This document shows, piece after piece, positions 690 to 40,346 of a DNA stretch of 64,000 nt. The stretch is from Cytophagales bacterium WSM2-2 (lineage in GTDB: Bacteria; Bacteroidota; Bacteroidia; Cytophagales; Cyclobacteriaceae): assembly GCA_015472025.1 (NCBI GenBank), contig BNHL01000001.1:3894001-3958000 (forward strand), in the 5' to 3' direction. The number at the start of each line of letters is the position of its first letter. Positions within the stretch are counted from its first letter, which is position 1. The notes below the pieces were generated by a model. The model did no database searches. It saw only the letters and a program-made list of their open reading frames with translations, and had not been told where the DNA came from. Position numbers and translations under genes: made by a program.

Positions 690-1673
690 TTAGATAGAAA
701 GGATTTTTGCGATTCGAAGTGATTCTTCGTCTATATCGTGACGAGAATTGGTGATGGTTTCGAAGCTATTATACACGATGAGACCATTTTTGATCCCTAC
801 CATCGCGTTGTTAGTACCTCTGATCAAACCCTCGACCGAAGCCACGCCCATTTTGCTGGCGAGCACCCTGTCGAAATAGGTAGGGGTTCCTCCGCGTTGC
901 AAGTGACCAAGGATAGTGACTTTGATATCGAAGTAATTGTTTCGTTCCGCAAATTTCTTTGCCAAATCCATCGCCCCCCCGATTTTTGAACCTTCGGCTA
1001 CAACTACCAAGCTTGATTTCTTGTTGGTCTTTCCGCCTTCATCCAGTTTCTCGAAAAGCTCATCGAGTGTCATTGTCTCTTCAGGAATGATCGTAGCCAC
1101 AGCACCACCGGCAATGCCGCAGTTGATGGCGATGTATCCTGAATTTCTCCCCATTACTTCAATGAAGAAAAGACGATTGTGTGAAATCGCGGTATCCCGG
1201 ATTTTGTCAATTGCCTCTACTGCTGTATTCGTTGCAGTGTCGAAGCCAATAGTATAATCTGTTCCTGCCAGGTCGTTGTCAATGGTGCCCGGGATGCAGA
1301 TGGAAGGAATTCCAAACTCTTCATAAAAAACATGAAGTCCTGCAAATGTTCCATCTCCGCCAATGGCGACTAAAGCATCAATCCCGTTTTTCTTCAAGTT
1401 GTCAAACGCTTTCTTGCGACCTTCCTTAGTCCGGAATTCCTGGCTGCGCGCTGATTTCAAAATAGTGCCGCCACGCTGGATGATATTGCCGACAGATCGT
1501 GCACCGAGCTTCACAATGTCTCCTGAAATCATGCCATCATAACCTTGCATGATGCCGAAGACTTCCTTCTTGTAGTAAATAGAAGTACGGACAACTGCAC
1601 GAATAGCAGCATTCATTCCAGGGGCATCGCCACCCGAAGTAAAAACACCGATCTTAGAGATTTTAGTATCCAT
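690..1673 (-). CDS. pfkA: ATP-dependent 6-phosphofructokinase
   Basis: This enzyme phosphorylates fructose 6-phosphate to fructose 1,6-bisphosphate in glycolysis. At 327 residues it has the normal bacterial PfkA length. Visible motifs are GGDAPGMN (residues 14-21), GGDGT (105-109), PGTIDND (128-134, with Asp132 as the expected catalytic base), GFDTA, MGRNSGYIA and GHLQRGG. Gly in the GGDG loop and Gly in PGTIDND indicate ATP rather than pyrophosphate as phosphoryl donor, because PPi-type enzymes usually carry Asp and Lys at these places. It lies between pgi (67-base gap) and the ROK kinase (10-base gap), all on the minus strand. Identification is secure. Confidence 0.97.
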   Translation of the reverse strand: MDTKISKIGVFTSGGDAPGMNAAIRAVVRTSIYYKKEVFGIMQGYDGMISGDIVKLGARSVGNIIQRGGTILKSARSQEFRTKEGRKKAFDNLKKNGIDALVAIGGDGTFAGLHVFYEEFGIPSICIPGTIDNDLAGTDYTIGFDTATNTAVEAIDKIRDTAISHNRLFFIEVMGRNSGYIAINCGIAGGAVATIIPEETMTLDELFEKLDEGGKTNKKSSLVVVAEGSKIGGAMDLAKKFAERNNYFDIKVTILGHLQRGGTPTYFDRVLASKMGVASVEGLIRGTNNAMVGIKNGLIVYNSFETITNSRHDIDEESLRIAKILSI

Positions 1674-1740
1674 TACGCTTGAAAGAAGGCCAAAAATAGT
1701 TCTTCCTCAATACTAGGCAAGGATTCTAAATTTTATTTGG

Positions 1741-3396
1741 TCACGATTCGTGTTTCAATCGTTTGAAATAATTGATCAACGCATTTGTAGATGAATCGTG
1801 CGCTGAAATTTCACCTGCAGAAGTCAGTTCAGGCAATATTTTTTTTGCCAGCACTTTTCCTATTTCCACACCCCATTGATCAAAGCTGAAAATATTCCAG
1901 ATGATTCCCTGCACGAAAATCTTGTGCTCATAAATTGCAATAAGGCTACCAAGTGTTCGTGGCGTGAGTTTTTTAAAGAGGATTGAGTTGGTTGGTTTAT
2001 TTCCATTAAATACTCTGAAGGGCGCCTGGAACTCGATTTCTTCTTCAGAGAATCCGGCTGACTTCAGTTCTTTTTCCACTTCTTCCAATGTTTTCCCAAG
2101 CATTAACCCCTCAGTCTGTGCGAAGAAATTTGAGAGCAGTTTATCATGGTGATCACTGATTGGATTGTGACTGACTGCAGGGGCAATGAAATCGCAGGGA
2201 ATCATTTTTGTTCCCTGGTGAATCAATTGATAAAAGGCATGCTGGCCGTTGGTGCCGGGTTCTCCCCAGATGACGGGACCGGTTTGATACATTAATTCTC
2301 TGCCAGAGCGATCAACCGATTTGCCATTACTCTCCATGTTGCCTTGTTGGAAATAAGCTGCGAAACGATGGAGATATTGATCATAGGGCAAGATGGCTTC
2401 GCTGGATGCATCGAAGAAATTGACGTACCAAATGCCGATCAGGGCAAGCATGACAGGAACGTTCTTTTCGAAAGATTCGGTTTTAAAATGATTGTCGATA
2501 GCGTGTGCGCCCTCCAGGAGCTGAACGAAATTCTCAAAGCCGATGGTACAAGCAATCGATAAGCCTATGGCGGACCACAATGAATAGCGGCCACCTACCC
2601 AATCCCAGAATTCAAACATGTTTTCAGTGGCAATACCAAAGGCAGACACTGCTTTCGCATTTGTTGAAAGTGCAACAAAATGTTTGGCTACGTCTCCGCG
2701 CCCTCCTGTTTTTTCAAGGAACCATTTCTTTGCCGACTCTGCGTTTGTCATCGTCTCCTGTGTGGTGAATGTTTTGGAGGCAATGATGAATAGCGTAGTT
2801 TCCGGATCAAGGTGTTTCAATGTTTCCGCAATGTGTGTGCCGTCTACATTGGAAACAAAGTGCGGTTTGATATGTTGATGATAAGGCTTCAGTGCCTCCG
2901 CTACCATAAGTGGCCCAAGATCTGAGCCACCAATTCCGATATTAACTATATCCGTGATTGCTTTTCCGGAGTGTCCTTTCCACTCACCACTTAGCAGGCG
3001 TTGTGAAAAACTCTTCATTTGGTCGAGGACTTTGTTCACTCCTGGCATTACGTCTTTGCCATCGACTAAGATCGGGGAATTGCTCCGGTTGCGTAGTGCT
3101 GTGTGCAAAACAGACCGATGCTCGGTTTGATTGATGATTGCGCCCTCGAACATTGCCTTGATCGCTTCGCTCAGGTCTGTCTGATTGGCAAGCTCAACAA
3201 GTGCATCGACTACTTCCTGCGAGATTAAGTTCTTGGAATAGTCCACAAGGATGTCTTCGAATTTCAAATGGAATTTATCAAAGCGTTGTGCATCTTCGGC
3301 AAAGAGCTCGCGCATATGCATGGCTTGCATGTTCAGGAAGCAAAACGTGAGCTTCGGCCACGCGGTGGTTTCGGTAGGGTTAATAGAATTGAGCAT
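1741..3396 (-). CDS. pgi: Glucose-6-phosphate isomerase
   Basis: This enzyme interconverts glucose 6-phosphate and fructose 6-phosphate in the cytoplasm. The protein has 551 residues, the usual size of the long bacterial/eukaryotic PGI type. It carries the PGI signatures: [10 protein letters not shown] in the first sugar-phosphate isomerase fold, SKTFTTQET in the phosphate-binding loop, [11 protein letters not shown] (PGI signature 1 region), [14 protein letters not shown] with the catalytic Glu/His region, and a C-terminal DQWGVEIGK containing the active-site Lys. The start [13 protein letters not shown] aligns with the usual PGI N-terminus. It is followed by pfkA and preceded by the START-like gene with a 50-base gap, which suggests co-transcription. 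Confidence 0.97.
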
Positions 3397-6020: not shown

Positions 6021-7976
6021 ATGAAAATGATTCTTCCCGATCGTGCCCGAGTTTTAATTGAGAATGTGCAACCCGTGGTTGATGGCGGACTGTATCCAGC
6101 CAAACGAACGATAGGGGAGAAAGTGGATATCACTGCGGACATTTTCACAGATGGACACGATCATATTCGTGCTTGTGTTTTATATAAGAAGGAGAAAGAT
6201 GGGCAGTGGATTGAGTTACCGCTTCGCCACACTTTCAACGATGGGTGGATTACTTCTTTCCCAGCGGCTGAGAAGGGAAATTATTTTTTCACCGTTCATG
6301 CCTGGATTGATCATTTTGAAACATGGTACGATGGTTTCAAAAAGAAAGCAGCAGCTAAAGTTGATGTTTCTGTCGAGTTGTTGGAGGGCGCTGCTTTTTT
6401 GCGGAGGCTGAAAAATTCCAACAGAGAATTACAAGCCCTGGCGGAAAAACTGGAAGACAAAACCAAACGTACTGAAGCAATCGATCTGGTACTTAGCAAA
6501 AACTTTGCGGAGATAGTTGAACAAAGTCCGTTAAAAGATATTGTAACCAAAACTGAAAGCGAATATCAGGTAGTGGTTGAATTTTCCAAGGCAAACTTCA
6601 GTGCGTGGTATGAATTTTTTCCCAGGTCTTCTTCCCTGGAGGCGGGCAAGCATGGAACATTCAAAGACTGCACGCGACTTTTGCCGCGTATTGCTTCGAT
6701 GGGATTTGATGTAATTTATTTTCCGCCAATTCATCCGATCGGAAAAATCAATCGCAAAGGCAAAAACAATAATGTGAAATCCGTGACCGGGGAGCCTGGT
6801 TCTCCCTGGGCTGTAGGAAGTGACGAAGGAGGTCATAAGTCATTGCTGCCGGCACTTGGGAATCTCGATGATTTCAAATCATTAGTAAATGAAGCCAAGC
6901 GTCTCGGTATTGACATTGCCATGGACATGGCGTTTCAGTGTGCGCCTGATCACCCGTATGTGAAAGAACATCCGGAATGGTTTATTCTTCGTCCGGATGG
7001 ATCGATACAGTATGCCGAAAATCCTCCCAAGAAATACCAGGACATCTATCCCTTCAACTTTGAATGCGAGAACTGGAAAACATTATGGAACGAATTGCTT
7101 TCGGTCTTCTTCTATTGGATTGACAATGGAATAAAAATCTTTCGCATTGACAACCCCCACACAAAGCCGATCCTTTTCTGGCAGTGGATCATAACCGAAG
7201 TTCACAAGAAAGATCCGGATATTATTTTTCTCTCCGAAGCTTTCACGCGTCCGAAGATCATGGATTCGTTGGCTAAGGTGGGGTTCACACAATCGTACAC
7301 TTACTTCACCTGGCGGATAACAAAACAGGAGCTCACCGAATACATGAATGAATTGGTGAACACGGCTTCACGGAATTATTTCAGGCCTAATTTCTGGCCC
7401 ACTACCCCAGACATATTGCCGTATCATCTTCATCACAAGAGCGAGAATACTTTCATTTTACGGTTTGCCCTGGCAGCTACGTTAAGTTCGAATTATGGAA
7501 TCTATGGGGCTGCGTATGAATTCCGTGATAACGATCCTTACCTGGGGAAAGAAGAGTTCAACAATTCGGAGAAATATGAAATTCGCTACTACGACTGGAA
7601 GCGAACGAATCGCATGACCGACATCATGTCGCTAGTGAATAAGGCAAGGAAGGAAAATGCTTCCCTGCAGTCGACATGGAATATTCAGTTCTGCGACATC
7701 CAAAACGACAACATCATCGCTTACCTCAAGTGCACAGATGACCTTTCGAACATCATTCTGGTTTTGGTGAATCTGAATGCCAATGCAATGGAATCAGGAT
7801 TCGTTCAGCTGCCTAAATCGATACTGAAATTGGACGATAAGATCAACGTGAAGTTGAATGACCTCGTCACCGGAGAGCATTTTACCTGGACGCAGGAGTG
7901 GAATTATGTGCAGATCAATCCGGATAAGATGCCGTTTCATTTGTTTAAACTAACCATCGAAGAATCCAACATGTAA
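6021..7976 (+). CDS. glgE: Alpha-1,4-glucan:maltose-1-phosphate maltosyltransferase
   Basis: GlgE, a GH13 subfamily 3 enzyme, transfers maltosyl units from maltose 1-phosphate to the non-reducing end of alpha-1,4-glucan and releases phosphate. The 651-residue protein has the GlgE N-terminal domain (RVLIENVQPVVDGGLYPAKR), then the (beta/alpha)8 barrel. Catalytic residues are visible: nucleophile Asp377 in FRIDNPHTK, acid/base Glu406 in FLSEAFTRP, and Asp464 in TTPDILPYH. The FRIDNPHTK motif is specific for GlgE rather than amylases. Its stop codon overlaps the start of the next gene by one base (TAATG), so translation is probably coupled. It opens the alpha-glucan operon. Confidence 0.96.
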   Translation: MKMILPDRARVLIENVQPVVDGGLYPAKRTIGEKVDITADIFTDGHDHIRACVLYKKEKDGQWIELPLRHTFNDGWITSFPAAEKGNYFFTVHAWIDHFETWYDGFKKKAAAKVDVSVELLEGAAFLRRLKNSNRELQALAEKLEDKTKRTEAIDLVLSKNFAEIVEQSPLKDIVTKTESEYQVVVEFSKANFSAWYEFFPRSSSLEAGKHGTFKDCTRLLPRIASMGFDVIYFPPIHPIGKINRKGKNNNVKSVTGEPGSPWAVGSDEGGHKSLLPALGNLDDFKSLVNEAKRLGIDIAMDMAFQCAPDHPYVKEHPEWFILRPDGSIQYAENPPKKYQDIYPFNFECENWKTLWNELLSVFFYWIDNGIKIFRIDNPHTKPILFWQWIITEVHKKDPDIIFLSEAFTRPKIMDSLAKVGFTQSYTYFTWRITKQELTEYMNELVNTASRNYFRPNFWPTTPDILPYHLHHKSENTFILRFALAATLSSNYGIYGAAYEFRDNDPYLGKEEFNNSEKYEIRYYDWKRTNRMTDIMSLVNKARKENASLQSTWNIQFCDIQNDNIIAYLKCTDDLSNIILVLVNLNANAMESGFVQLPKSILKLDDKINVKLNDLVTGEHFTWTQEWNYVQINPDKMPFHLFKLTIEESNM

Positions 7977-10900
7977 TGGCAACAAAAAGTAAAACTGATC
8001 CATTGTGGTTTAAAGATGCAGTCATCTATGAAGTAAGCGTTCGTGCATTTTGCGATAGCAATGGAGATGGCATTGGTGATTTCCAGGGACTGATCTCCAA
8101 ACTCGATTACCTTGAGGATCTCGGGATAAATACCATTTGGCTTTTGCCGTTTTTTCCTTCCCCTTTACGCGATGACGGGTTTGATGTAACTGACTATTGC
8201 GACATTCATGCCGACTACGGCAAGCTTTCTGACTTTAAAGAATTTTTGAAAGTGGCTCACGGTCGCGGCATGCGGGTGATTACAGAATTGGTTTTGAACC
8301 ACACCTCTGACCAGCACCCGTGGTTCCAGCGTTCGCGCAAAGCGAAGGCCGGTTCGCGCTATCGCGACTACTATGTGTGGAACAATTCTCCTGACAAATA
8401 CAAGGAAGCTCGGGTCATGTTTGCCGGGGAAGACTCAACTAACTGGGCATGGGATGTGGACGCCAAAGCATATTATTGGCACCGCTTCTATCGCCATCAA
8501 CCGGAACTCAATTACGATAATCCTGAAGTGCAGCTGGAGATCATCAAGGTGATCGACTTCTGGCTAAAAATCGGAGTAGATGGTTTTCGTCTTGGCTCTG
8601 TTCCTTTTCTATTCGAGGAGGACGGGACCAGTTGCGAGAACCTCCCGCAGACACACAACTTCGTGAAGAAGGTCAGGTCACACATGGACAAGCACTATGA
8701 TGACCGCGTACTGTTGGCAGAAGCGAACATGTGGCCCGAAGATGCTGCTGAGTATTTTGGAAAGGGGAATGAGTGTAACATGTGCTTCAACTATTCACTG
8801 ATGCCTCGTTTGTTTTTGGGTTTGAGAACCGAAGACAGTTTTCCGATCATCGATATTTTAGAACAAACACCGGCTACGCCAGAGAACTGTCAATGGGCAT
8901 TGTTCCTTCGAAACCATGATGAAATAGGATTGGAGATGGTGACGGAAGAAGAGAAAGATTACCTCTTCAAGGCTTACGCCACCGATCCGAACATGAAGCA
9001 CAACATAGGCATTCGCAGAAGGCTCGCTCCGTTGCTCAATAACGATCGGAGGAAAATCGAGATGTTGTACATGTTGTTGTTTTCGTTGCCAGGCACACCG
9101 ATCATATATTATGGAGATGAGATTGGCATGGGCGACAATATTTACCTCGGAGACCGCTTTGGGGTTCGCACGCCAATGCAATGGGACATGAACCTCAATG
9201 CAGGGTTTTCAAAAGCGAATCCACAAAAACTATTTCTTCCCGTCATCACCGATCCAGTATATCGTTATGAGTCGGTCAACGTGACGATGCAGGAAGAGAA
9301 TCCTTCTTCGCTGATGTGGTGGATAAAGAATGTACTCGCAATGCGGAAGCGTCTCCATGTTTTCGGACGAGGAGATTTGATTTTTATTGAAAGCTCCAAC
9401 GCGAAGGTTTTGTGTTTCGTTAGGAGTTTCAAAAATCAACGTGTAGCTGTTGTTGCAAACCTTTCGCAGTTTTCACAGGCAACAACGCTTGATTTCTCAG
9501 AGTTTAAAGAATGTGATATTACGGAGGCATTCAGTCAGAATCGCTTCATGAGTATTTCTGGGAGAGAGTATCCGATCACGTTAGGACCCTATGGCTACTA
9601 TTGGTTCCAGATTGATGCATCGGAAAAGAAAGAGACAGGTTTCTCTTCAAGCGAGTTGCCATTATATCAATCCGACTTGAGTTGGGAACGTACGTTTTCC
9701 GATTATGAAAACATACGTTTCATGGAGCGCAAAGTGCTGCAGAATTTCATGCGAAAATGCCGGTGGTTCGGAGGCAAGGCGAGGACCATCAGCAAAGTCA
9801 GCATTGATAAAGTAATTCCGCTTAAGGCAGAAGACGACACACACTATCTTTTAGTCGTTGAAGTTCATTATGTTCAAAAGCTTCCTGAGCTGTATTTCCT
9901 GCCGATCTCATTGGCGCAGTCCGACTCGCTGTTTGAAAGCATGGAATACAATGCACAGAGCGTTCTCTGTCGCGCTGACTTCCAGGGCAGGCCCGGGTTT
10001 ATTGTTGATAGCAGTTACAACAAAAACTTCAGGGATTTTCTTTTCCAGGCGATGGACAAGAAGATCAGGATAAAAGAAGAGGGGGGAACGTTGGAATTCA
10101 ATTCAGGGATTTACGTGAAACTGAGTTCCAGAAATGTGGACTCCAAAATCCTGAAGGCAGATCAAAGCAATACAGCCATTATTTACAACGATCAGTTCTT
10201 CTTCAAATTCTACCGCAGGGTGGAGCGTGAGATCAATCCCGATATGGAAATTGTACGCTTCCTCTCGGAAAGCACTAGTTTCAAGAACTCACCGAAATAT
10301 GCGGGCAGCATTGAATACATCGATGAAGAAGGAAGAATAATTGTGCTTGGCTTGTTGCAGGAGAAAGTGGAAAACCAGGGTGACAGTTGGGCAATGACCA
10401 TCGACTCCGTGGGGCGTTTTTATGAACGAGTGATGACGAATGCAAAGAAGGAAAAGTTGCCCAAGCTTCTTAATAAATCTGCGTTGACGTTCGAAGAATC
10501 TCCTGAGCTTATCCAGGAATTGATTGGCCGTGGTTTTTATGAACGAGTTGTGCGTCTTGGACAACGCACTGCTGAGATGCACATGGCACTTGCGTCCGAC
10601 AATTCCAATCCCGCATTTGCCCCAGAAGACTTTACACACAACTATCAGCGGTCATTATATTCATCATTGAGAAAACTCACCCGCGACAGATTGAAAGTCC
10701 TGGAGCAGTCGATGGATAAATTGAACGAGCATACGCAAATCCTGGCCAAAGAAATTTTGAGCAAAGAGAAATTGATCCTGGAATGCTTCAGCGATGTTTA
10801 TAAGGTCCGACTCGATGCTGTTAAAACGCGAATTCATGGAGACTATCACTTGGGCCAGGTTCTCTTTACCGGAAAGGATTTCGTCATCATCGACTTCGAG

Positions 10901-11296
10901 GGAGAGCCGGGTTTTAGTTTCAGTGAACGAAGATTGAAGAAGAGCCCGCTCAAAGATGTTGCAGGGATGATGCGCTCTTTCCACTATGCCGCGTTCGGGA
11001 AGATTCTGCTTAATGAAAATTACCGCGAGCGCGACCTGGAATTCCTAGGGCAGTGGGCGGAAGTGTGGCAACATTATATAAGCCGCTTCTATATGGGTGC
11101 TTATCTCGAAAGAAAAGGAATGAAACAGGATTTGTCTGAAGGCGATGATATTCTCATGAGCGTTTACCTTCTGGAGAAGGCGATCTATGAATTGGGATAT
11201 GAACTCAATGGGCGGCCAGACTGGGTGATTATCCCGCTCCGCGGAATTCAATATCAACTCAATCGCTGGGCACTGTCAAAGAAACGAGAGGCATAA
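7976..11296 (+). CDS. treS-pep2: Trehalose synthase/maltokinase fusion (TreS-Pep2) with altered TreS active site
   Basis: A 1106-residue fusion. Residues 1 to about 550 are a GH13_16 trehalose synthase domain, which normally interconverts trehalose and maltose. Residues from about 585 are a maltokinase that makes maltose 1-phosphate for GlgE. The kinase looks intact: HGDYHLGQVL with Asp956 and IDFEGEPG. In the TreS part, Glu249 (LLAEANMWPED) and Asp315 (RNHDE) are present. However, the nucleophile position in region II reads GFRLGSVP, with Gly207 (codon GGC, 8594-8596) where Asp is expected, and region I has Glu104 (ELVLNH) where Asp is usual. The frame is otherwise undamaged and full length. 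The TreS domain is therefore probably not a normal trehalose isomerase and may act as scaffold or glucan/sugar sensor. glgB follows after three bases. Confidence 0.93.
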   Translation: MATKSKTDPLWFKDAVIYEVSVRAFCDSNGDGIGDFQGLISKLDYLEDLGINTIWLLPFFPSPLRDDGFDVTDYCDIHADYGKLSDFKEFLKVAHGRGMRVITELVLNHTSDQHPWFQRSRKAKAGSRYRDYYVWNNSPDKYKEARVMFAGEDSTNWAWDVDAKAYYWHRFYRHQPELNYDNPEVQLEIIKVIDFWLKIGVDGFRLGSVPFLFEEDGTSCENLPQTHNFVKKVRSHMDKHYDDRVLLAEANMWPEDAAEYFGKGNECNMCFNYSLMPRLFLGLRTEDSFPIIDILEQTPATPENCQWALFLRNHDEIGLEMVTEEEKDYLFKAYATDPNMKHNIGIRRRLAPLLNNDRRKIEMLYMLLFSLPGTPIIYYGDEIGMGDNIYLGDRFGVRTPMQWDMNLNAGFSKANPQKLFLPVITDPVYRYESVNVTMQEENPSSLMWWIKNVLAMRKRLHVFGRGDLIFIESSNAKVLCFVRSFKNQRVAVVANLSQFSQATTLDFSEFKECDITEAFSQNRFMSISGREYPITLGPYGYYWFQIDASEKKETGFSSSELPLYQSDLSWERTFSDYENIRFMERKVLQNFMRKCRWFGGKARTISKVSIDKVIPLKAEDDTHYLLVVEVHYVQKLPELYFLPISLAQSDSLFESMEYNAQSVLCRADFQGRPGFIVDSSYNKNFRDFLFQAMDKKIRIKEEGGTLEFNSGIYVKLSSRNVDSKILKADQSNTAIIYNDQFFFKFYRRVEREINPDMEIVRFLSESTSFKNSPKYAGSIEYIDEEGRIIVLGLLQEKVENQGDSWAMTIDSVGRFYERVMTNAKKEKLPKLLNKSALTFEESPELIQELIGRGFYERVVRLGQRTAEMHMALASDNSNPAFAPEDFTHNYQRSLYSSLRKLTRDRLKVLEQSMDKLNEHTQILAKEILSKEKLILECFSDVYKVRLDAVKTRIHGDYHLGQVLFTGKDFVIIDFEGEPGFSFSERRLKKSPLKDVAGMMRSFHYAAFGKILLNENYRERDLEFLGQWAEVWQHYISRFYMGAYLERKGMKQDLSEGDDILMSVYLLEKAIYELGYELNGRPDWVIIPLRGIQYQLNRWALSKKREA

Positions 11297-11299
11297 AAC

Positions 11300-13255
11300 A
11301 TGGGAAAGAAGAAAACGGCCAAAACAGAAGACCCCGGCTTTAGCCTCCTGACGGATTTTGACATACATCTGTTCAAAACAGGGAAGCATTTCAAACTTCA
11401 CGAGAAACTCGGTGCTCACCTGGTTAAGAACAATAAAGAACAAGGAACTTATTTTGCAGTTTGGGCGCCCAATGCTAAATCCGTTTCCGTCATCGGCAAT
11501 TTCAACCAATGGAAAGACAATGAACAAAAGCTTTCTCCGAGATGGGATGAGTCAGGGATATGGGAAGGTTTCTTCGTCGGAATAAAAAAGGGTGAAGCGT
11601 ACAAATATGCCATCCACTCCAACACTGGAGAATACCTGGAGAAAGCCGACCCGTTTGCGTTCTTCAGCGAAGTGCCGCCACGCACAGCATCTATTGTCTG
11701 GGACCACGACTATACCTGGAATGACAAGGCGTGGATGAACAAGCGCAAGAAAGAACAGGCGCAGTCGCGGCCGATGTCTGTTTATGAAATTCACTTTGGT
11801 AGCTGGCGAAGAAACCCGGGAGAGGCAAACCGGTCGCTGACTTACAAGGAAATGAAAATCGAATTGGTGAACTACATCCAAGAGACAGGATTCACACACG
11901 TGGAATTCCTTCCGATGATGGAGCATCCGTTCTTTGGATCGTGGGGATACCAGATTACTGGCTACTATGCACCCACCAGCCGTTATGGTTCACCGCAGGA
12001 ATTCATGGAGTTGATCGATGCCTTGCACGAGGCGGAGATCGGAGTAATTCTCGATTGGGTTCCATCACATTTCCCTGGCGATGCGCATGGCTTGTACAAA
12101 TTTGACGGAACCAATCTCTACGAGCATGCCGACCCGCGCAAAGGTTTTCATCCCGACTGGAGCAGTTACATTTATAATTATGGCCGCAACGAGGTGAGGT
12201 CGTTTCTCATCAGCAATGCGATCTTCTGGCTGGAATTCTTCCATGCCGATGGTTTGCGTGTTGATGCCGTAGCCTCCATGCTATACCTCGACTATTCGCG
12301 CAAAGCAGGAGAGTGGATACCCAATCAATATGGAGGTAATGAAAATATTGAAGCGATTCAATTCCTGAAAGAATTGAATGAAGTGGTGTACAGCAATTTT
12401 CCTGATGCCGTGACAATTGCTGAGGAATCTACTTCGTGGCCTGGTGTTTCTAGACCAACCTATCTTGGTGGCCTCGGCTTCGGACAAAAGTGGATGATGG
12501 GATGGATGCATGACACACTTCATTATTTTCAGAAAGATCCTGTGCATCGCAAATACCATCAGAACGATATCACATTCAGCATCATGTATGCGTTCACGGA
12601 GAACTTCATGCTGCCGCTTTCACACGATGAAGTCGTTCACGGCAAGGGCCCGCTGATTGGCCGGATGCCCGGCGATGAATGGAGGCGCTTTGCCAACCTT
12701 CGCCTCTTGTATGGCATGATGTACATGCATCCCGGCACGAAGCTTTTGTTCATGGGCGGAGAGTTTGGGCAGACAGCAGAATGGAACCACGACTATAGCT
12801 TACACTGGCATTTACTTAAACATGATTTTCATAAAGGGGTGTTGAACCTTGTCAAAGATCTCAATGCGCTTTACCGCTCAGAGTTAGCGCTGCATCAGTA
12901 CCAGTTTAGCAACAAGGGATTCGAGTGGATTGATTATGCCGACCGTGAGAACAGTGTGATCGTTTTCATGCGTAAGTGTGATGACCCAATGCAGTCACTC
13001 ATTGTTGTTGCCAATTTCACACCCGAACTACAAGGGCAGTATAGACTGGGAGTGCCTTTCCGTGGAATCTGGAGTGAAGTATTGAATTCAGACAACCTCA
13101 ACTACGGAGGAGGAGGTCAATTGAACAACAGCAATCAGTTCACTTCGCCTGTAAAATACCATGGAAAAGATTTCTCTATTTCTGTTACGCTCGCCCCGCT
13201 AGGCATATCAGTTTTCAAATTAAACAAGTCGTTGTCAGAGTTTGAATTGGAATAG
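11300..13255 (+). CDS. glgB: 1,4-alpha-glucan branching enzyme
   Basis: This enzyme forms alpha-1,6 branches in glycogen-like glucan. The 651-residue protein has a CBM48 domain (residues about 45-130, YFAVWAPNAKSVSVIGNFNQW region), a GH13 barrel and an all-beta C-terminal domain. Catalytic residues are visible: Asp322 (GLRVDAVASM), Glu375 (IAEESTSWP) and Asp443 (SHDEVVHGKG). The SHDEVVHGK and RVDAVASMLYLDYSR motifs are specific for branching enzymes. It begins three bases after the TreS-Pep2 stop and is followed by the GH57 gene after 33 bases, consistent with one operon producing branched alpha-glucan by the GlgE route. Confidence 0.97.
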   Translation: MGKKKTAKTEDPGFSLLTDFDIHLFKTGKHFKLHEKLGAHLVKNNKEQGTYFAVWAPNAKSVSVIGNFNQWKDNEQKLSPRWDESGIWEGFFVGIKKGEAYKYAIHSNTGEYLEKADPFAFFSEVPPRTASIVWDHDYTWNDKAWMNKRKKEQAQSRPMSVYEIHFGSWRRNPGEANRSLTYKEMKIELVNYIQETGFTHVEFLPMMEHPFFGSWGYQITGYYAPTSRYGSPQEFMELIDALHEAEIGVILDWVPSHFPGDAHGLYKFDGTNLYEHADPRKGFHPDWSSYIYNYGRNEVRSFLISNAIFWLEFFHADGLRVDAVASMLYLDYSRKAGEWIPNQYGGNENIEAIQFLKELNEVVYSNFPDAVTIAEESTSWPGVSRPTYLGGLGFGQKWMMGWMHDTLHYFQKDPVHRKYHQNDITFSIMYAFTENFMLPLSHDEVVHGKGPLIGRMPGDEWRRFANLRLLYGMMYMHPGTKLLFMGGEFGQTAEWNHDYSLHWHLLKHDFHKGVLNLVKDLNALYRSELALHQYQFSNKGFEWIDYADRENSVIVFMRKCDDPMQSLIVVANFTPELQGQYRLGVPFRGIWSEVLNSDNLNYGGGGQLNNSNQFTSPVKYHGKDFSISVTLAPLGISVFKLNKSLSEFELE

Positions 13256-13288: not shown

Positions 13289-15682
13289 ATGTCATCGAAT
13301 AATTTCATTTGCATTCACGGTCATTTTTACCAACCGCCACGTGAGAATGCGTGGCTTGAGGTGATTGAAGTACAGGATTCCGCGCATCCCTACCACGACT
13401 GGAATGAACGCATCAATGCGGAGTGCTACGATCCCAATGCTACAGCGCGTATCCTGAACGAACAGGGCGTGATACGTGACATTGTCAACAACTACTCACG
13501 TATCAGTTTCAATTTTGGCCCGACTTTGCTTTCGTGGATGGAGATCAACGCGAAGGAAACGTACGATGCCATTCTTGAAGCCGACAAAGAAAGTATGAAG
13601 CGCTTCGGAGGTCATGGCTCCGCCATTGCACAGGTGTACAATCACATCATCATGCCCCTGGCAAACGCCCGCGACAAACAAACGCAGATTCTCTGGGGCA
13701 TACGTGATTTTGAACATCGCTTTGGCAGGAAACCCGAAGGCATGTGGTTGGCCGAAACAGCGGTGGACACCGCGACACTCGAAGCTCTTGCTGATCATGA
13801 TATCAAATTCACCGTTCTCGCTCCGCGCCAGGCAAAGGCGATAAGAAAAGCAGGAGAGGAGTGGACTGAAGTGAATGACAAGACGGTTAACACAAAACAG
13901 GCTTACCGCTGCAACCTTCCTTCCGGCAGATCGATTCACCTTTTCTTCTACGATGGAGACATTTCGCAATCCATCGCCTTCAATGGCTTGCTCAATGATG
14001 GTAAACACTTTGCCGAGAGCTTGCTGAACGCCATCGATGCGAAAGAAACATCCTCTCAATTGATCCACGTTGCTACGGATGGAGAGACTTACGGTCATCA
14101 TCATTCGCATGGAGATATGGCACTGGCCTTTTGCCTGGACTATATTGAGAAAGATCACCGTGTTAATCTGACAAACTACGCGCAATTCCTTTCACTGGTG
14201 CCGATCACGCACGAAGCCCAGATTTTTGAGAACAGTTCGTGGAGCTGTGTGCATGGTGTGGAGCGTTGGCGCAGCGACTGCGGGTGCAATACCGGTGGCA
14301 AGGCAGAGTGGAACCAGAAGTGGAGAAAACCATTGCGTGAAGCATTGGACTGGCTCCGCGATGCTGTGAACGAAATTGTAGAGCGTGAAGGAAAGAAAGT
14401 ACTTCGTGACCTGTCCATCGCGCGAAATGATTATATCAATGTCATTCTCAACCGGAATGAGGGTACGGTAAAGAAATTCCTGAAGTCGAATATCATTGAG
14501 AGTGCTTCTTCTATGGATGTATTGCGGTTGATGGAAATGCAACGCCATGCGCTGCTCATGTATACGAGTTGCGGTTGGTTCTTTGATGAAATTTCCGGTA
14601 TTGAGACCACACAAGTGCTGCAGTATGCCTGCCGTGTGATCCAGTTGGCTAGCCAAACGGGTGGAGTAGATCTCGAGCCGGAATTCCTTCAACGGCTGGA
14701 ACTAGCACCAAGTAACATTGCCGCGCATCAAAATGCAGCGGAGATATACAAGAAGTATGTTATTCCCGCCCGCACCAACCTGAAGCGCGTGGGCATGCAC
14801 TATGCTGTGTCTTCCATCTTTGATGAAGAACCCGAGGTCCTGAACATTTTCAACTACAAGACGTTTTCAGAGTCGTTCATCAAAAAAGAGGCGGGCGATC
14901 AGAAACTGGCTTTGGGGATTACCCGGGTGAAGTCACTCGTAACCTTATCGGAAAAGAAATTCTCTTTTGCAGTGATCTGCCTCGGTAAACATAATATCAT
15001 CGGCAACATCTCTCTTGATATGGGGCCCGACAATTTTGCGAGCATGCAGTTCCGAATGGTCAAAGCTTTTGAAGAAGGAAGACTCGGTGATGTGATAGGT
15101 TATATGCAGTCGTATTTCGGACAGGAGAAGTACACCATCTGGCAACTGTTCAGCGATGAGAAACGCAAAGTGCTTGAGTTGATCGCGCAAGATAGTCTGT
15201 CAACACTGGAGAACTCCCTGCGTAAGAGCTACAACAGCGACTACCAACTTATCACTGCGCTCTCCAACAACGGCATTCCTATTCCGCCAGCCTACAAGAC
15301 CGCTTTCGAATATGTTTTGAATGCTGACCTTATCAAATGTTTTTCTTCTGAGAAGATCAATATCAAGACCATGGAGCGCATCGCCTCTGAACTTGATCGC
15401 TGGAACCTCAAGATTGAGGACGTCAGCAAGCTCTCTCGTCTTGCCGGTGAAAGTATCTACAAAGAACTCAAGCGCATCGGCAGTGAACAGGAAAACCTGA
15501 AGCGCCTGCAGCGTCTTAACCGCATGTTTCCTTTATTGAAGAAATTCGGTTTGAGCCCGCATCTGCACAAGAGTCAGAATTACTACTTCCAGCTTTCGAA
15601 AGAACCGCACATTATTAATGGTGAGGCGGAGTGGAAGGAACAGTTTGGAGTGCTGGGGGAGAACCTGGGAGTGAAGGTGTGA
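13289..15682 (+). CDS. GH57-family glycosidase with DUF3536 domain
   Basis: A 797-residue cytoplasmic protein without signal peptide. The first ~300 residues are a GH57 barrel, a family of alpha-glucan-acting amylases, 4-alpha-glucanotransferases and branching enzymes. Visible GH57 motifs are the opening HGHFYQPPRENAW, GMWLAETAVD with the expected nucleophile Glu156, and ATDGETYGHHH with the expected acid Asp264. The remaining part matches the DUF3536 type of long C-terminal helical region (ARNDYINVILNR, MLMYTSCGWFFDEISGIET). Its place behind glgE, treS-pep2 and glgB suggests degradation or remodelling of the same intracellular glucan. It could supply maltose to the maltokinase; that is inference, and the exact product is not known. 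Confidence 0.88.
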   Translation: MSSNNFICIHGHFYQPPRENAWLEVIEVQDSAHPYHDWNERINAECYDPNATARILNEQGVIRDIVNNYSRISFNFGPTLLSWMEINAKETYDAILEADKESMKRFGGHGSAIAQVYNHIIMPLANARDKQTQILWGIRDFEHRFGRKPEGMWLAETAVDTATLEALADHDIKFTVLAPRQAKAIRKAGEEWTEVNDKTVNTKQAYRCNLPSGRSIHLFFYDGDISQSIAFNGLLNDGKHFAESLLNAIDAKETSSQLIHVATDGETYGHHHSHGDMALAFCLDYIEKDHRVNLTNYAQFLSLVPITHEAQIFENSSWSCVHGVERWRSDCGCNTGGKAEWNQKWRKPLREALDWLRDAVNEIVEREGKKVLRDLSIARNDYINVILNRNEGTVKKFLKSNIIESASSMDVLRLMEMQRHALLMYTSCGWFFDEISGIETTQVLQYACRVIQLASQTGGVDLEPEFLQRLELAPSNIAAHQNAAEIYKKYVIPARTNLKRVGMHYAVSSIFDEEPEVLNIFNYKTFSESFIKKEAGDQKLALGITRVKSLVTLSEKKFSFAVICLGKHNIIGNISLDMGPDNFASMQFRMVKAFEEGRLGDVIGYMQSYFGQEKYTIWQLFSDEKRKVLELIAQDSLSTLENSLRKSYNSDYQLITALSNNGIPIPPAYKTAFEYVLNADLIKCFSSEKINIKTMERIASELDRWNLKIEDVSKLSRLAGESIYKELKRIGSEQENLKRLQRLNRMFPLLKKFGLSPHLHKSQNYYFQLSKEPHIINGEAEWKEQFGVLGENLGVKV

Positions 15683-36944: not shown

Positions 36945-39900
36945 TTGATGAAACACCTTGCCTGCTTTTTAGTGTTTTCTCTGATTTTTTACACCACGGG
37001 TTTTTCTCAGTCACGAACACGGACATCATTGGATGAGAAGTGGAAATTTCATTTTGGCCATGCTGCTAATCCCGAGAAGGATTTTAACTACAGCATCAAT
37101 ACAATCTATTCCAAGTCGGGCGGAGCTTACAAGACCGCCATCGATCCCCGGTTCAACGACAGCACCTGGAGAACTTTGAATGTTCCACACGATTGGGCGG
37201 TTGAGTTGCCGTTTGTCAATGTAAAAAATTCGGACGTAGAGTCTCACGGGTATAAACCTGTGGGAGGGATGTTTCCCGAAACAAGCATCGGCTGGTATCG
37301 CAAACACTTTACAGTTGCCAAGGCCGACTCTGGTTCACGATTTCAAATACAATTCGATGGCATTTTCAGAAACGCTTCTGTATGGCTCAACGGATTTTAT
37401 TTAGGCACGAATTTCAGTGGTTATATCGGGGCATCGTATGACGTCACAGACTATGTCCGTTTTAACAAGGACAATGTTCTTGTGGTCAGAGTCGATGCCA
37501 CTCAGTACGAAGGATGGTTTTATGAAGGAGCGGGTATCTATCGTCACGTGTGGCTGAACAAATACAACAACGTCCACATTACGGAGGGAGGCCTTTTTGC
37601 CTACACCGATGTGCAGGGCACTTCTGCCAATGTGACGATCGAGACAAGTGTGGAGAATCAAGACTTGAATGCAGCCAACTGTACGGTCTACTCTTATGTC
37701 ACCAACAGGGAAGGTAAAATACTGACTCAAAGCAAAGAGCAACCGCTCAGTCTAGGAGTAAATGCAAAGAGCAAAGTGAAACAACAACTGACTCTCGCCA
37801 ATTTCCGCTGGTGGTCACTGGATGACCCGTACATGTACCGGGCTGTGTCTGTGATAAAGTCAGGAGGTAAAGTGGTGGATGTTGTCAGGAGTAAGTTCGG
37901 CATCCGGACGTTGCGCTTCGATGGAAATGAAGGCTTCTTTCTCAACGGGAAGCACGTGAAGATTCTTGGTACAAACAATCATCAGGACCATGCCGGGGTC
38001 GGGAGCGCGTTGCCAGACTACTTACATTATTATAGAGTTCGCTTGTTGAAAAACATGGGATCGAACGCTTATCGCGCAAGTCATAATCCACCGGCCCCTG
38101 AATTGTTAGACGCATGCGACAGTCTCGGGATGTTGGTAATGGATGAACCCCGGTTGCTCAACAGTAGTCCGGAATATATCAGTCAGTTCGAGCGAATGGT
38201 TCTTCGTGATCGCAATCATCCATCCATTTTTATCTGGTCCATTGGGAATGAAGAAGGATGGATACACACCACAAGCAATGGTAAGAGAATAGCTTTGACG
38301 GTGATGGCAAAGCAAAAGGAACTTGACCCGACAAGGACAAGTACTTATGCCGCAGATGTTGCCAACGTATACAAAGGCGTTAATGAAGTTATTCCGGTTC
38401 GTGGATTTAACTACCGCCAGTATGGTGTAGCGGATTATCACCGTGATCACCCGAGCCAGCCGATCATCGGCACGGAGATGGGAAGTACCGTGACGACACG
38501 TGGAATCTATGTGAAGGACTCCATTCGTGGTTACGTACCTGATCAGGACATCACTGCGCCCTGGTGGGCAAGCAAAGCGGAAGTGTGGTGGAAGCTCGCG
38601 GCCGACAATAATTACTGGGCCGGCGGTTTTGTATGGACCGGTTTCGACTACCGTGGCGAGCCGACACCTTTTCATTGGCCGAATATCAGTTCGCATTTCG
38701 GAATCATGGACGCCTGTGGTTTCCCGAAGAACATCTATTACTACTATCAAAGCTGGTGGACAGACAAAGATGTGCTGCACATTTCGCCACATTGGAACTG
38801 GCGCGACAAACGCGGACAACCTATAGATGTGTGGGTGAACACCAACGCGGACAACGTTGAGCTATTTCTCAATGGAAAAAGTCTCGGAAAAAAAGACATG
38901 GAACGCAACGGCCATTTGCAATGGTCTGTCAACTATCAACCCGGCGCACTTGAAGCAGTTGCATTCAAGAAAGGGAAGAAGCTGACCACCAAAGTTGAAA
39001 CTACCGGCACTCCGACCGAAGTGGTGATGACTCCTTACAAAACAACGATGCTTGCTGATGGGAAAGACGTTTGTGTTATTAATCTCACGGCCATTGATCG
39101 TGAAGGGCGTGAGGTGCCGGACGCAGACAACATGGTGAAATTTGAAATTACCGGACCGGGAAAAATTATTGGTGTTGGCAATGGCGATCCCAGTAGTCAT
39201 GAACCGGACCAGGGAATTGATGGCGCATGGCAACGCAGTTTCTTTAATGGGAAATGCCAGGTTATCGTTCAGTCTAATGGCAAGTCGGGTACGATTCACT
39301 TCGAAGCAAAAGCAAGCGGCCTATGGACAGGCTCAACGGATATTGTCACCGTGCCTATTGGAAGTGCAACGTCAGTTTCTATCGACAGGAAATATGAATT
39401 GAAAGGTGAGGCTGCCAAAATGAGAAAGTCAACTCCAATGATTGGTGCTGACATTTCTTTTTTGCCTGAACTGGAAGATCGTGGAATAAAATTTTCAGAT
39501 AACGGAACGTCAAAGGATGCTATTCAGATATTGAAAGATCATGGATTCAACTATGTGCGTTTGCGAGTCTTCAACGATCCTGCTAAAGAGAAGGGATATT
39601 CTCCAGCGAAAGGTTTTTGTGATCTTGCGCACACCAAGCAAATGGCCAAACGAGTAAAGGAGGCAGGTATGAAACTTTTGCTCGACTTCCACTATAGCGA
39701 CTACTGGGCTGATCCGGGCAAGCAGTACAAGCCGGATGCTTGGAAAGATCTCTCTTTCGAGAATCTGAAAAAGGCTCTTCATGATTACACTAAAAAAGTA
39801 GTACAAGAGCTGAAAGATCAGGGCACAACACCCGATATGGTGCAGGTTGGAAATGAAATCAATCATGGCATGGTATGGCCCGAAGGAAATGTCAATCACG

Positions 39901-40346
39901 TGGACAGTCTTGCACAATTATTCTCTGCAGGTGTAGCCGGTGTCAAAGCCGTTGATACCAACATTATCATTATGCTTCATGTGGCTTTGGGAGGGCAAAA
40001 TGATGAAACGGTTTGGTTTGTAGATCAGATGTTAAAGCGGCAAGTCCACTTTGATGTGATCGGACTTTCGTACTATCCCAAATGGCATGGTACGCTTGAT
40101 GATCTCCGGGATAATATGAATGATTTATTAAAAAGATACGAACAGGACATTATCCTCGTAGAGTACTCTGCAAAGAAAGAGGAGGTAAGCAAAATCGTTT
40201 TCGAATTGCCAGGAGGCCGTGGTAAAGGCACATGCATTTGGGAGCCGTTGAATACGTGGGAGTCCGTCTTTGACCGCGAAGGCAAGTCAAACGACTTCCT
40301 GAAGATGTACGACCAGATTAGTAAGAAGTACCTGACCTCAAATTGA
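36945..40346 (+). CDS. Secreted GH2-GH53 fusion (beta-galactosidase / endo-beta-1,4-galactanase)
   Basis: An 1133-residue protein with signal peptide (ending YTTGFSQ). Residues about 25-810 are a GH2 enzyme: sugar-binding jelly roll, Ig-like domain, barrel with acid/base Glu436 (IGNEEGW) and nucleophile Glu511 (IIGTEMGS), and two further beta domains. Residues 826-1133 form a complete GH53 endo-galactanase: MIGADISFLPE start, acid/base Glu971 (VGNEINHGM) and nucleophile Glu1073 (ILVEYSA). GH53 cuts beta-1,4-galactan of pectin side chains; the GH2 half would release galactose from the oligosaccharides. Both active sites are intact, so the protein is probably bifunctional. The stop TGA joins the opposite gene's stop in TGATCA. 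Confidence 0.93.
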   Translation: MMKHLACFLVFSLIFYTTGFSQSRTRTSLDEKWKFHFGHAANPEKDFNYSINTIYSKSGGAYKTAIDPRFNDSTWRTLNVPHDWAVELPFVNVKNSDVESHGYKPVGGMFPETSIGWYRKHFTVAKADSGSRFQIQFDGIFRNASVWLNGFYLGTNFSGYIGASYDVTDYVRFNKDNVLVVRVDATQYEGWFYEGAGIYRHVWLNKYNNVHITEGGLFAYTDVQGTSANVTIETSVENQDLNAANCTVYSYVTNREGKILTQSKEQPLSLGVNAKSKVKQQLTLANFRWWSLDDPYMYRAVSVIKSGGKVVDVVRSKFGIRTLRFDGNEGFFLNGKHVKILGTNNHQDHAGVGSALPDYLHYYRVRLLKNMGSNAYRASHNPPAPELLDACDSLGMLVMDEPRLLNSSPEYISQFERMVLRDRNHPSIFIWSIGNEEGWIHTTSNGKRIALTVMAKQKELDPTRTSTYAADVANVYKGVNEVIPVRGFNYRQYGVADYHRDHPSQPIIGTEMGSTVTTRGIYVKDSIRGYVPDQDITAPWWASKAEVWWKLAADNNYWAGGFVWTGFDYRGEPTPFHWPNISSHFGIMDACGFPKNIYYYYQSWWTDKDVLHISPHWNWRDKRGQPIDVWVNTNADNVELFLNGKSLGKKDMERNGHLQWSVNYQPGALEAVAFKKGKKLTTKVETTGTPTEVVMTPYKTTMLADGKDVCVINLTAIDREGREVPDADNMVKFEITGPGKIIGVGNGDPSSHEPDQGIDGAWQRSFFNGKCQVIVQSNGKSGTIHFEAKASGLWTGSTDIVTVPIGSATSVSIDRKYELKGEAAKMRKSTPMIGADISFLPELEDRGIKFSDNGTSKDAIQILKDHGFNYVRLRVFNDPAKEKGYSPAKGFCDLAHTKQMAKRVKEAGMKLLLDFHYSDYWADPGKQYKPDAWKDLSFENLKKALHDYTKKVVQELKDQGTTPDMVQVGNEINHGMVWPEGNVNHVDSLAQLFSAGVAGVKAVDTNIIIMLHVALGGQNDETVWFVDQMLKRQVHFDVIGLSYYPKWHGTLDDLRDNMNDLLKRYEQDIILVEYSAKKEEVSKIVFELPGGRGKGTCIWEPLNTWESVFDREGKSNDFLKMYDQISKKYLTSN

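Follow-up and report, generated by a model that had tools for sequence, protein, structure and literature searches.

Why would a bacterium keep a trehalose synthase domain that has lost its catalytic nucleophile? This question is raised by a 64,000-nucleotide stretch of the genome of Cytophagales bacterium WSM2-2 (GenBank assembly GCA_015472025.1, contig BNHL01000001.1, positions 3,894,001 to 3,958,000 of the forward strand), hereafter the window. It carries a fusion of trehalose synthase (TreS) and maltokinase (Mak/Pep2), encoded by an open reading frame (ORF) of 1106 aa at 7976-11296. The fusion, its parts, and the other operon genes described below lie on the + strand. Residues 1-550 (7976..9625) form a TreS-like GH13 domain without the nucleophile, which we named TreS*. 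Residues 579-1106 (9710..11293) form an intact maltokinase half. We propose that TreS* is a pseudoenzyme half, kept as the partner of the maltokinase in a GlgE pathway that runs independently of trehalose. This reading rests on sequence comparison, and we give it a probability of about 0.77.

Nucleophile site of TreS*

The nucleophile position of TreS* is occupied by Gly207 (codon GGC, 8594..8596), which lies within GFRLGSVPFL. A preliminary description of the locus had read this residue as a lost nucleophile, and it was borne out by the ORF and by alignment of Gly207 on the nucleophile Asp of the TreS structures 5x7u and 5h2t. Gly207 stands at the end of the predicted strand 203-207, and the nucleophile Asp of β4 is absent there. 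The alignment with TreS structures and other fusions, which that description had suggested, showed no neighbouring Asp at the nucleophile position. The other features it had listed are also present: the frame is open, the general acid/base Glu249 (8720..8722) and the transition-state stabiliser Asp315 (8918..8920) are retained, and HGDYHLGQ and DFEGEPG stand in the kinase half. Its second anomaly did not hold. Glu104 of region I (VITELVLNH, residues 101-109, 8276..8302) is truly Glu, but this is normal for TreS, since Glu occupies the position in 5x7u and in 71/71 fusions that keep the nucleophile (intact fusions).

Two further residues are changed. Phe211 (8606..8608) replaces the Tyr of the +1 subsite (Tyr213 of Deinococcus radiodurans TreS), and Gly318 (8927..8929) replaces a Thr that is invariant in intact fusions. 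The +1 subsite trio of Deinococcus TreS (Tyr213, Glu320, and Glu324) is incomplete in the window protein, where Tyr has become Phe211 and Glu316 and Glu320 are kept. Activity was not detected in the Deinococcus mutants Y213A, E320A, and E324A; the mutant tested at the first position was Y213A, not Y213F (PMC4257617). Residue roles were taken from the same paper, and Deinococcus numbers were transferred by motif spacing.

The domain is still recognised as trehalose synthase. The NCBIfam model TIGR02456 (GH13_16 trehalose synthase) matched the fusion with 832 bits against a cut-off of 678. The best Foldseek match of TreS* was TreS 5x7u, with a TM-score of 0.93 by target length. The AlphaFold model of the whole fusion (mean pLDDT 82.4, pTM 0.54) showed the TreS fold, with segments of low confidence at 337-349, 384-400, and 405-432. 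The case for a loss of activity follows from the double-displacement mechanism of TreS, which needs the nucleophile (PMC4257617). TreS* would be unable to interconvert trehalose and maltose: small residues stand where Asp would form the covalent glucosyl intermediate, and the +1 subsite is changed.

Distribution of the loss among related fusions

The nucleophile Asp was kept in 71/127 distinct fusions and absent in 56/127, where P, A, S, G, T, or N took its place. Clade A comprises 52 proteins including that of the window, all from the window's family or from close named relatives such as Chryseolinea. Residue 207 is P in 23 of them, A in 12, S in 12, and G in 5. Clade B comprises four Saprospiria proteins, with T (2), S or N at this position. 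The two clades were first sorted by residue 207, so the absence of Asp in 56/56 is circular. Three results are independent of this sorting. First, clades A and B formed one clade (SH-aLRT 99) both in a tree of the kinase half and in one built from the TreS half after removal of the motif columns, and neither tree placed an Asp-bearing row inside it. These trees held 71 rows (27/52 of clade A, 4/4 of clade B, and 40/71 intact) and came from a quick search with no bootstrap; in the kinase tree the placement of the long branches L173, L174, L131, L129, and L172 is unsure. Second, all relatives read at ≥65% identity were without Asp, and the nearest intact ones reached ≤53%. Third, a check set of 60 fusions read later from outside the clade (49 found at the order level and 11 at the phylum level) had Asp207, Tyr211, and Thr318 in 60/60.

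Within the 56 proteins, position 207 changed at least 15 times; among 215 positions that are conserved across intact fusions, position 265 alone changed more. Position 318 (Thr322 equivalent) is G or A in 52/52 clade A proteins and Thr in 71/71 intact fusions. A shifted Asp was rejected as an explanation: no acid was found at residues 206-212 of the window protein, and position 208 (Ala210 equivalent) is S or N in 52/52 clade A proteins.

The relatives came from overlapping searches of genomes (58 of near relatives, 196 of the family, 390 of the order, 395 of the phylum, 395 of the class), from a single scan over named genome contigs (15 loci), and from fetched stretches. Before row removal there were 93 intact, 66 clade A, and 5 clade B rows. 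We dropped repeats of the same locus (L001, L137, L164-L167), rows identical or 99.6% identical to L011, L016, and L017 (L038-L040), partial proteins (L025, L026, L028, L049, L136), and further identical sequences. Of group f37, which consists of related intact fusions, 21/25 were dropped, and its phylum-search matches were covered only in part. No fusion was obtained from L030, L051, and L052.

Genomic setting and source of maltose

The fusion is the second gene of a compact operon. GlgE maltosyltransferase (6021..7976; match to the GlgE structure 4u2y, 576 bits, residues 10-642) precedes it, and the GlgE stop overlaps the fusion start in TAATG. The branching enzyme GlgB (11300..13255; NF003811, 949 bits, over the cut-off) follows, and then a GH57-DUF3536 protein (13289..15682; PF03065, PF12055), a possible alpha-glucan-modifying enzyme and source of maltose. 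This setting is common to the nucleophile-less loci. With the window uncounted, GlgE lay upstream in 52/55 and GlgB downstream in 51/55. GlgE was missing at L011, L045, and L048, and GlgB at four Saprospiria loci; the flanks of L045 are short. Twelve genomes had both forms of the fusion, and there the intact copies had no GlgE or GlgB neighbour (the downstream flank of L113 is short).

Pathway genes were compared in 43 of the 56 fusion-bearing genomes of the family. Of these, 17 had only the nucleophile-less form, 12 had both forms, and 14 had only the intact form. The genomes left out (G060, G061, G123, G136, G138, G140, G143, G187, G189, G211, G215, G232, G235) were all without TreS*, and several carried a fusion with a dead kinase half. 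The three groups differed in trehalose and maltose genes. TreY was present in 0/17 genomes with only the nucleophile-less form, 12/12 with both, and 14/14 with only the intact form; counted by genus, the numbers were 0/5 vs 11/11 (Fisher p about 2e-4). MalQ (GH77) was found in 0/17, 11/12, and 14/14, once in two pieces (G154). An OtsA-like gene was found in 3/17, 12/12, and 14/14, and it exceeded the model cut-off only in the last 14. The OtsA-like frame of the window genome (G000:C1:4658575-4659984) has 488 aa; the other listed frames have 727-785 aa.

The TreS model (E 1e-90 or better) gave a single match over the cut-off in each of the 17 genomes with only the nucleophile-less form, so no second TreS was found in 17/17 at this threshold. 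A compensating second TreS in the window genome was rejected, as its other GH13 matches reached ≤199 bits. The preliminary description had proposed that the operon uses maltose of another origin, and the absence of TreY, MalQ, and a second TreS in all 17 genomes supports it.

Because MalQ is missing in these genomes, another source of maltose is needed. By analogy, the GH57-DUF3536 protein of the operon is a plausible supplier: a Pontibacter DUF3536 counterpart had hydrolytic and 4-alpha-glucanotransferase activity (PMC11206854). Some relatives have GH13 amylases upstream of GlgE, with N-termini that appear lipoprotein-like by eye, and these are another candidate source. No such upstream amylase was found in the window operon.

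Glycogen synthases were also compared. GT3 glycogen synthase occurred in 12/17 genomes with only the nucleophile-less form and 9/12 with both (21/29 with the nucleophile-less form), and in 1/14 with only the intact form. In the window genome, GT3 was absent, and so was a complete GlgA. GlgA over the cut-off was found in none of the 43 genomes, which gave fragment matches only. A frame with only the N-terminal part of GlgA (~270-340 aa) was present in 42/43, in the window genome at G000:C1:2545094-2545759. A conserved GlgA-GT5 fragment has been described in Bacteroidetes (PMC11046441).

Maltokinase half and the mirror state

The kinase half appeared intact. It matched the NCBIfam maltokinase model TIGR02457 (Mak/Pep2) with 428 bits against a cut-off of 375, and it has the Mak_N_cap domain. 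The HGD motif (10835..10843, within HGDYHLGQ, residues 954-961) carries the putative catalytic base Asp956. The DFE motif (10892..10900, within DFEGEPG, residues 973-979) carries the Mg-binding Asp973. In the Mycobacterium vanbaalenii maltokinase, Asp305 is the putative catalytic base and Asp322 a Mg ligand, and a change of the Mg-ligand Asp to Asn abolished the activity of the M. tuberculosis enzyme (PMC4306142). The invariant Lys744, His954, Asp956, Asp973, and the other kinase residues checked were kept in 56/56 nucleophile-less proteins (52/52 of clade A and 4/4 of clade B).

The mirror state, in which a kinase Asp is lost and the TreS nucleophile is kept, was found in 20/131 intact fusions. 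Among the first 71, ten were without Asp956, Asp973, or both (L029, L126, L129, L130, L132-L135, L172, L174). The loss occurred in 0/41 fusions beside GlgE/GlgB, 0/12 co-resident with TreS*, and 10/18 others (Fisher p 7e-7 for the 41 against the 18, uncorrected for kinship). The 60 fusions read later gave the same picture: 0/36 beside GlgE/GlgB and 10/24 elsewhere (L202-L204, L207, L212, L214, L215, L217, L222, L224), all at Asp956. Together, a kinase Asp was lost in 0/77 fusions beside GlgE/GlgB, 0/12 co-resident ones, and 20/42 elsewhere, with adjacency judged from short flanks of about 0.9-2.6 kb. Several more of the 42 kept both aspartates and had changes in neighbouring motif residues.

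Proposed role of TreS*

In the proposed mechanism, TreS* folds as TreS, and its C-terminal domain would hold the kinase half. TreS* would be retained since the fused maltokinase depends on it as a partner in assembly and activation. The maltokinase would phosphorylate maltose that may come from alpha-glucan breakdown or from uptake. GlgE would then polymerise maltose 1-phosphate and GlgB would branch the glucan, so that the pathway would be uncoupled from trehalose. The clade-wide loss is probably due to a pathway that is fed by maltose, not by trehalose, in these soil Bacteroidota. A precedent is the M. tuberculosis pair, in which TreS raises Pep2 activity (PMC6509496).

Several observations weigh against this reading. 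An OtsA-like gene is present in the window genome and in two further genomes with only the nucleophile-less form, so trehalose may be present there. The nucleophile-less form also stands alongside the trehalose pathway (TreY and OtsA-like) in 12 genomes. Because of this coexistence, the nucleophile could evidently be lost without the loss of trehalose synthesis, and a division of labour may have come first. The catalytic, −1 subsite, and most gate residues are kept in 52/52 clade A proteins, which is more than would be expected of a mere scaffold. A related kinase exists without TreS: Neolewinella antarctica has a free-standing frame of ~500 aa (503 aa, L052:9929-11437) with 34% identity to the maltokinase half and no TreS domain. 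In M. smegmatis, Pep2 was reported as not stimulated by TreS (PMC6509496). Finally, the GH13 amylase BmaN1 works despite an aberrant triad (PMC5347038), but an Asp adjoins its changed nucleophile, unlike here.

The preliminary description had held that the isomerase activity is lost or strongly changed and that the domain is kept for the maltokinase. Comparison supports this proposal well, through clade-wide loss, fold, purifying selection (see below), an intact kinase, and missing trehalose genes; the interpretation given in that description is, as a whole, supported in part.

Pocket conservation, selection, and alternative explanations

A special form of the proposed role is that TreS* acts as a sugar sensor. 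It would close on a disaccharide or glucose, leave it uncleaved, and switch the maltokinase on or off. We regard this as possible but tentative. The state of the pocket is its main support. In clade A, D70, H109, R205, E249, H314, D315, and R398 are kept in 52/52 proteins (Asp63, His106, Arg207, Glu251, His318, Asp319, and Arg398 in Deinococcus). The gate residues R146, E221, N251, and E316 (Arg148, Glu223, Asn253, and Glu320) are also kept in 52/52, and E320 (Glu324) is E in 42 and D in 10. Position 207 holds small residues only. In the sucrose isomerase MutB, D200 is presumably the nucleophile. The inactive MutB double mutant D200A-D415N has been seen with isomaltulose in structure 4ha1, which is in line with binding by a pocket of this kind. 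Clade B speaks against a sensor. Its pocket is more worn, with R146 and E320 changed in 4/4 and R205, E249, and N108 (the Asn before His106) also changed in L047, yet its kinase aspartates are kept. In addition, S7, a part of the gate, has the largest excess divergence in clade A, and the two active sites are 53 Å apart in M. smegmatis (PMC6509496). The conserved pocket of clade A would therefore favour sugar binding and signalling, whereas the worn pocket of clade B argues against a general need for them.

That TreS* still works as a weak or slow trehalose synthase by means of another residue is very unlikely. BmaN1 would be a precedent (PMC5347038), and the pocket is otherwise conserved. Against this, position 208 offers S or N throughout clade A, and the sole new conserved acid of the clade replaces an acid (Asp177 to Glu). 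The +1 Tyr (window 211) is Phe in 50/52 clade A proteins and Tyr in 71/71 intact fusions. The absence of TreY and the scarcity of OtsA-like genes in genomes with only the nucleophile-less form point the same way.

A changed chemistry, in which phosphate or a sugar acceptor takes the place of Asp and TreS* works as an inverting phosphorylase or a natural glycosynthase, is slightly less probable still. Of the catalytic triad only the nucleophile is missing in clade A, and the small replacements would leave room for an acceptor. Such an active site fits poorly with Pro in 23/52 proteins, a +1 Tyr lost in 50/52, and 15 changes at position 207. If this chemistry were true, TreS* would supply or drain the maltose on which its own kinase half acts.

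It is highly improbable that TreS* is simply decaying and not yet lost. Its divergence is about twice that of intact fusions at equal kinase divergence, as decay would predict. Over 1306 clade A pairs, the median TreS/kinase ratio of protein divergence was 0.82, compared with 0.44 over 2480 pairs of intact fusions; these ratios are descriptive, as the pairs share ancestry. However, the median ratio of nonsynonymous to synonymous substitution rates (dN/dS) of nine close clade A pairs was 0.025 for TreS* and 0.016 for the kinase. Intact fusions were excluded from this comparison, since many of their 39 pairs seemed too distant or badly aligned. No internal stop was found among the clade matches listed, in which contig ends truncate a few genes, and the clade spans several families. 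At 178/205 TreS positions with ≥98% conservation in intact fusions, clade A still has the same majority residue; the residue is lost in most of the clade at 27 (counted before deduplication).

The divergence was unevenly distributed over the domain. At a kinase divergence of 0.2-0.3 (1009 clade A pairs vs 52 pairs of intact operon fusions), S8 and the C-terminal domain of clade A showed an excess of 1.8 and 1.6 fold, respectively, and S7, subdomain B, and the barrel pieces one of 1.9-2.7 fold. At 0.3-0.4 (150 vs 37 pairs), the excess reached 3.4 fold in S7 and ranged from 1.2 to 2.1 in subdomain B and the barrel pieces, while S8 and the C-terminal domain both stood at 1.1. The excess is smallest in the dimer (S8) and kinase-docking parts and largest in the barrel and gate. 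This pattern suggests relaxation in the catalytic parts of TreS* and less of it in the assembly parts. Judged from its sequence, TreS* would be a pseudoenzyme, with a key residue lost across a clade and the fold and sequence under purifying selection.

A sequencing or alignment error behind Gly207 has a negligible probability, because every relative read at ≥65% identity is also without Asp, and the window comes from a hybrid assembly.

Window genome and neighbouring genes

Cytophagales sp. WSM2-2 is a garden-soil isolate with a hybrid assembly from Illumina and Nanopore data at 242x (PMC7849703). The assembled sequence comprises 4 contigs with 5,547,679 bases in total. Scans of the window for regulatory sites were uninformative, with 23 promoter-like sites against 14.9 expected (sd 3.2) and 10 terminator-like sites against 10.7 expected. 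PfkA and Pgi adjoin the operon in the window (690-3396), and they lie near the operon in the Chryseolinea loci L044 and L050, at L044 beside a ROK-family kinase. A 1133-aa ORF at 36945-40346 resembles, by eye, a fusion of a GH2 beta-galactosidase with a GH53-type galactanase.

Relation to known systems

Fusions of TreS with Mak, and their GlgE operons, have been described before. The fusion of Estrella lausannensis has the same domain order and serves a GlgE pathway in which the kinase half makes maltose 1-phosphate; both of its halves were shown to be active, whereas the window fusion is without the TreS nucleophile (PMC7935935). Pseudomonas aeruginosa has a glgE-treS/pep2-glgB cluster like that of the window. 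Its TreS domain is a weak enzyme, with a kcat/Km of 0.65 per M per s, and its MalQ can supply the kinase with maltose, bypassing TreY, TreZ, and TreS, so that maltose 1-phosphate forms independently of trehalose (PMC8084333). It differs in that TreS is active and TreY, TreZ, and MalQ are present, whereas here the nucleophile is lost and TreY and MalQ are absent in the compared genomes with only the nucleophile-less form. In the mycobacterial TreS:Pep2 complex, TreS is the core that carries the maltokinase, as proposed here, but the two are separate proteins and TreS is active (PMC6509496). The BmaN1 group also consists of GH13 proteins without the usual nucleophile Asp; unlike in TreS*, the stabiliser is changed too, an Asp lies beside the changed site, and activity has been reported (PMC5347038).

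GH13-like heavy chains such as rBAT, which appeared among the PDB matches, place a GH13 fold in a partner protein of a different activity, but they are unfused to a kinase. Heavy chains of this type are subunits of membrane transporters. RelA/SpoT and degenerate GGDEF-EAL proteins likewise unite two enzymes, one of which becomes inactive and may control its partner; their folds and pathways are unrelated. In the open-licence full-text literature, we found no description of a nucleophile-less TreS clade, of its link to the absence of TreY and MalQ, or of the mirror state with a dead kinase. No paper on maltokinase, Bacteroidota, and GlgE together was found in the open-licence literature.

Implications

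Automatic annotation would name TreS* a trehalose synthase. Because TIGR02456 is over its cut-off in 17/17 genomes with only the nucleophile-less form, pathway predictions for them may be wrong. The mirror states of one fusion provide a natural test of why a partner is retained, whether for scaffold, stability, or allostery. They also bear on the activation of maltokinase by TreS in the mycobacterial complex. The GlgE pathway has been described as a route from trehalose to glycogen, yet this whole clade seems able to run it trehalose-free, and the trehalose enzyme seems to be carried there as a catalytically silent partner.

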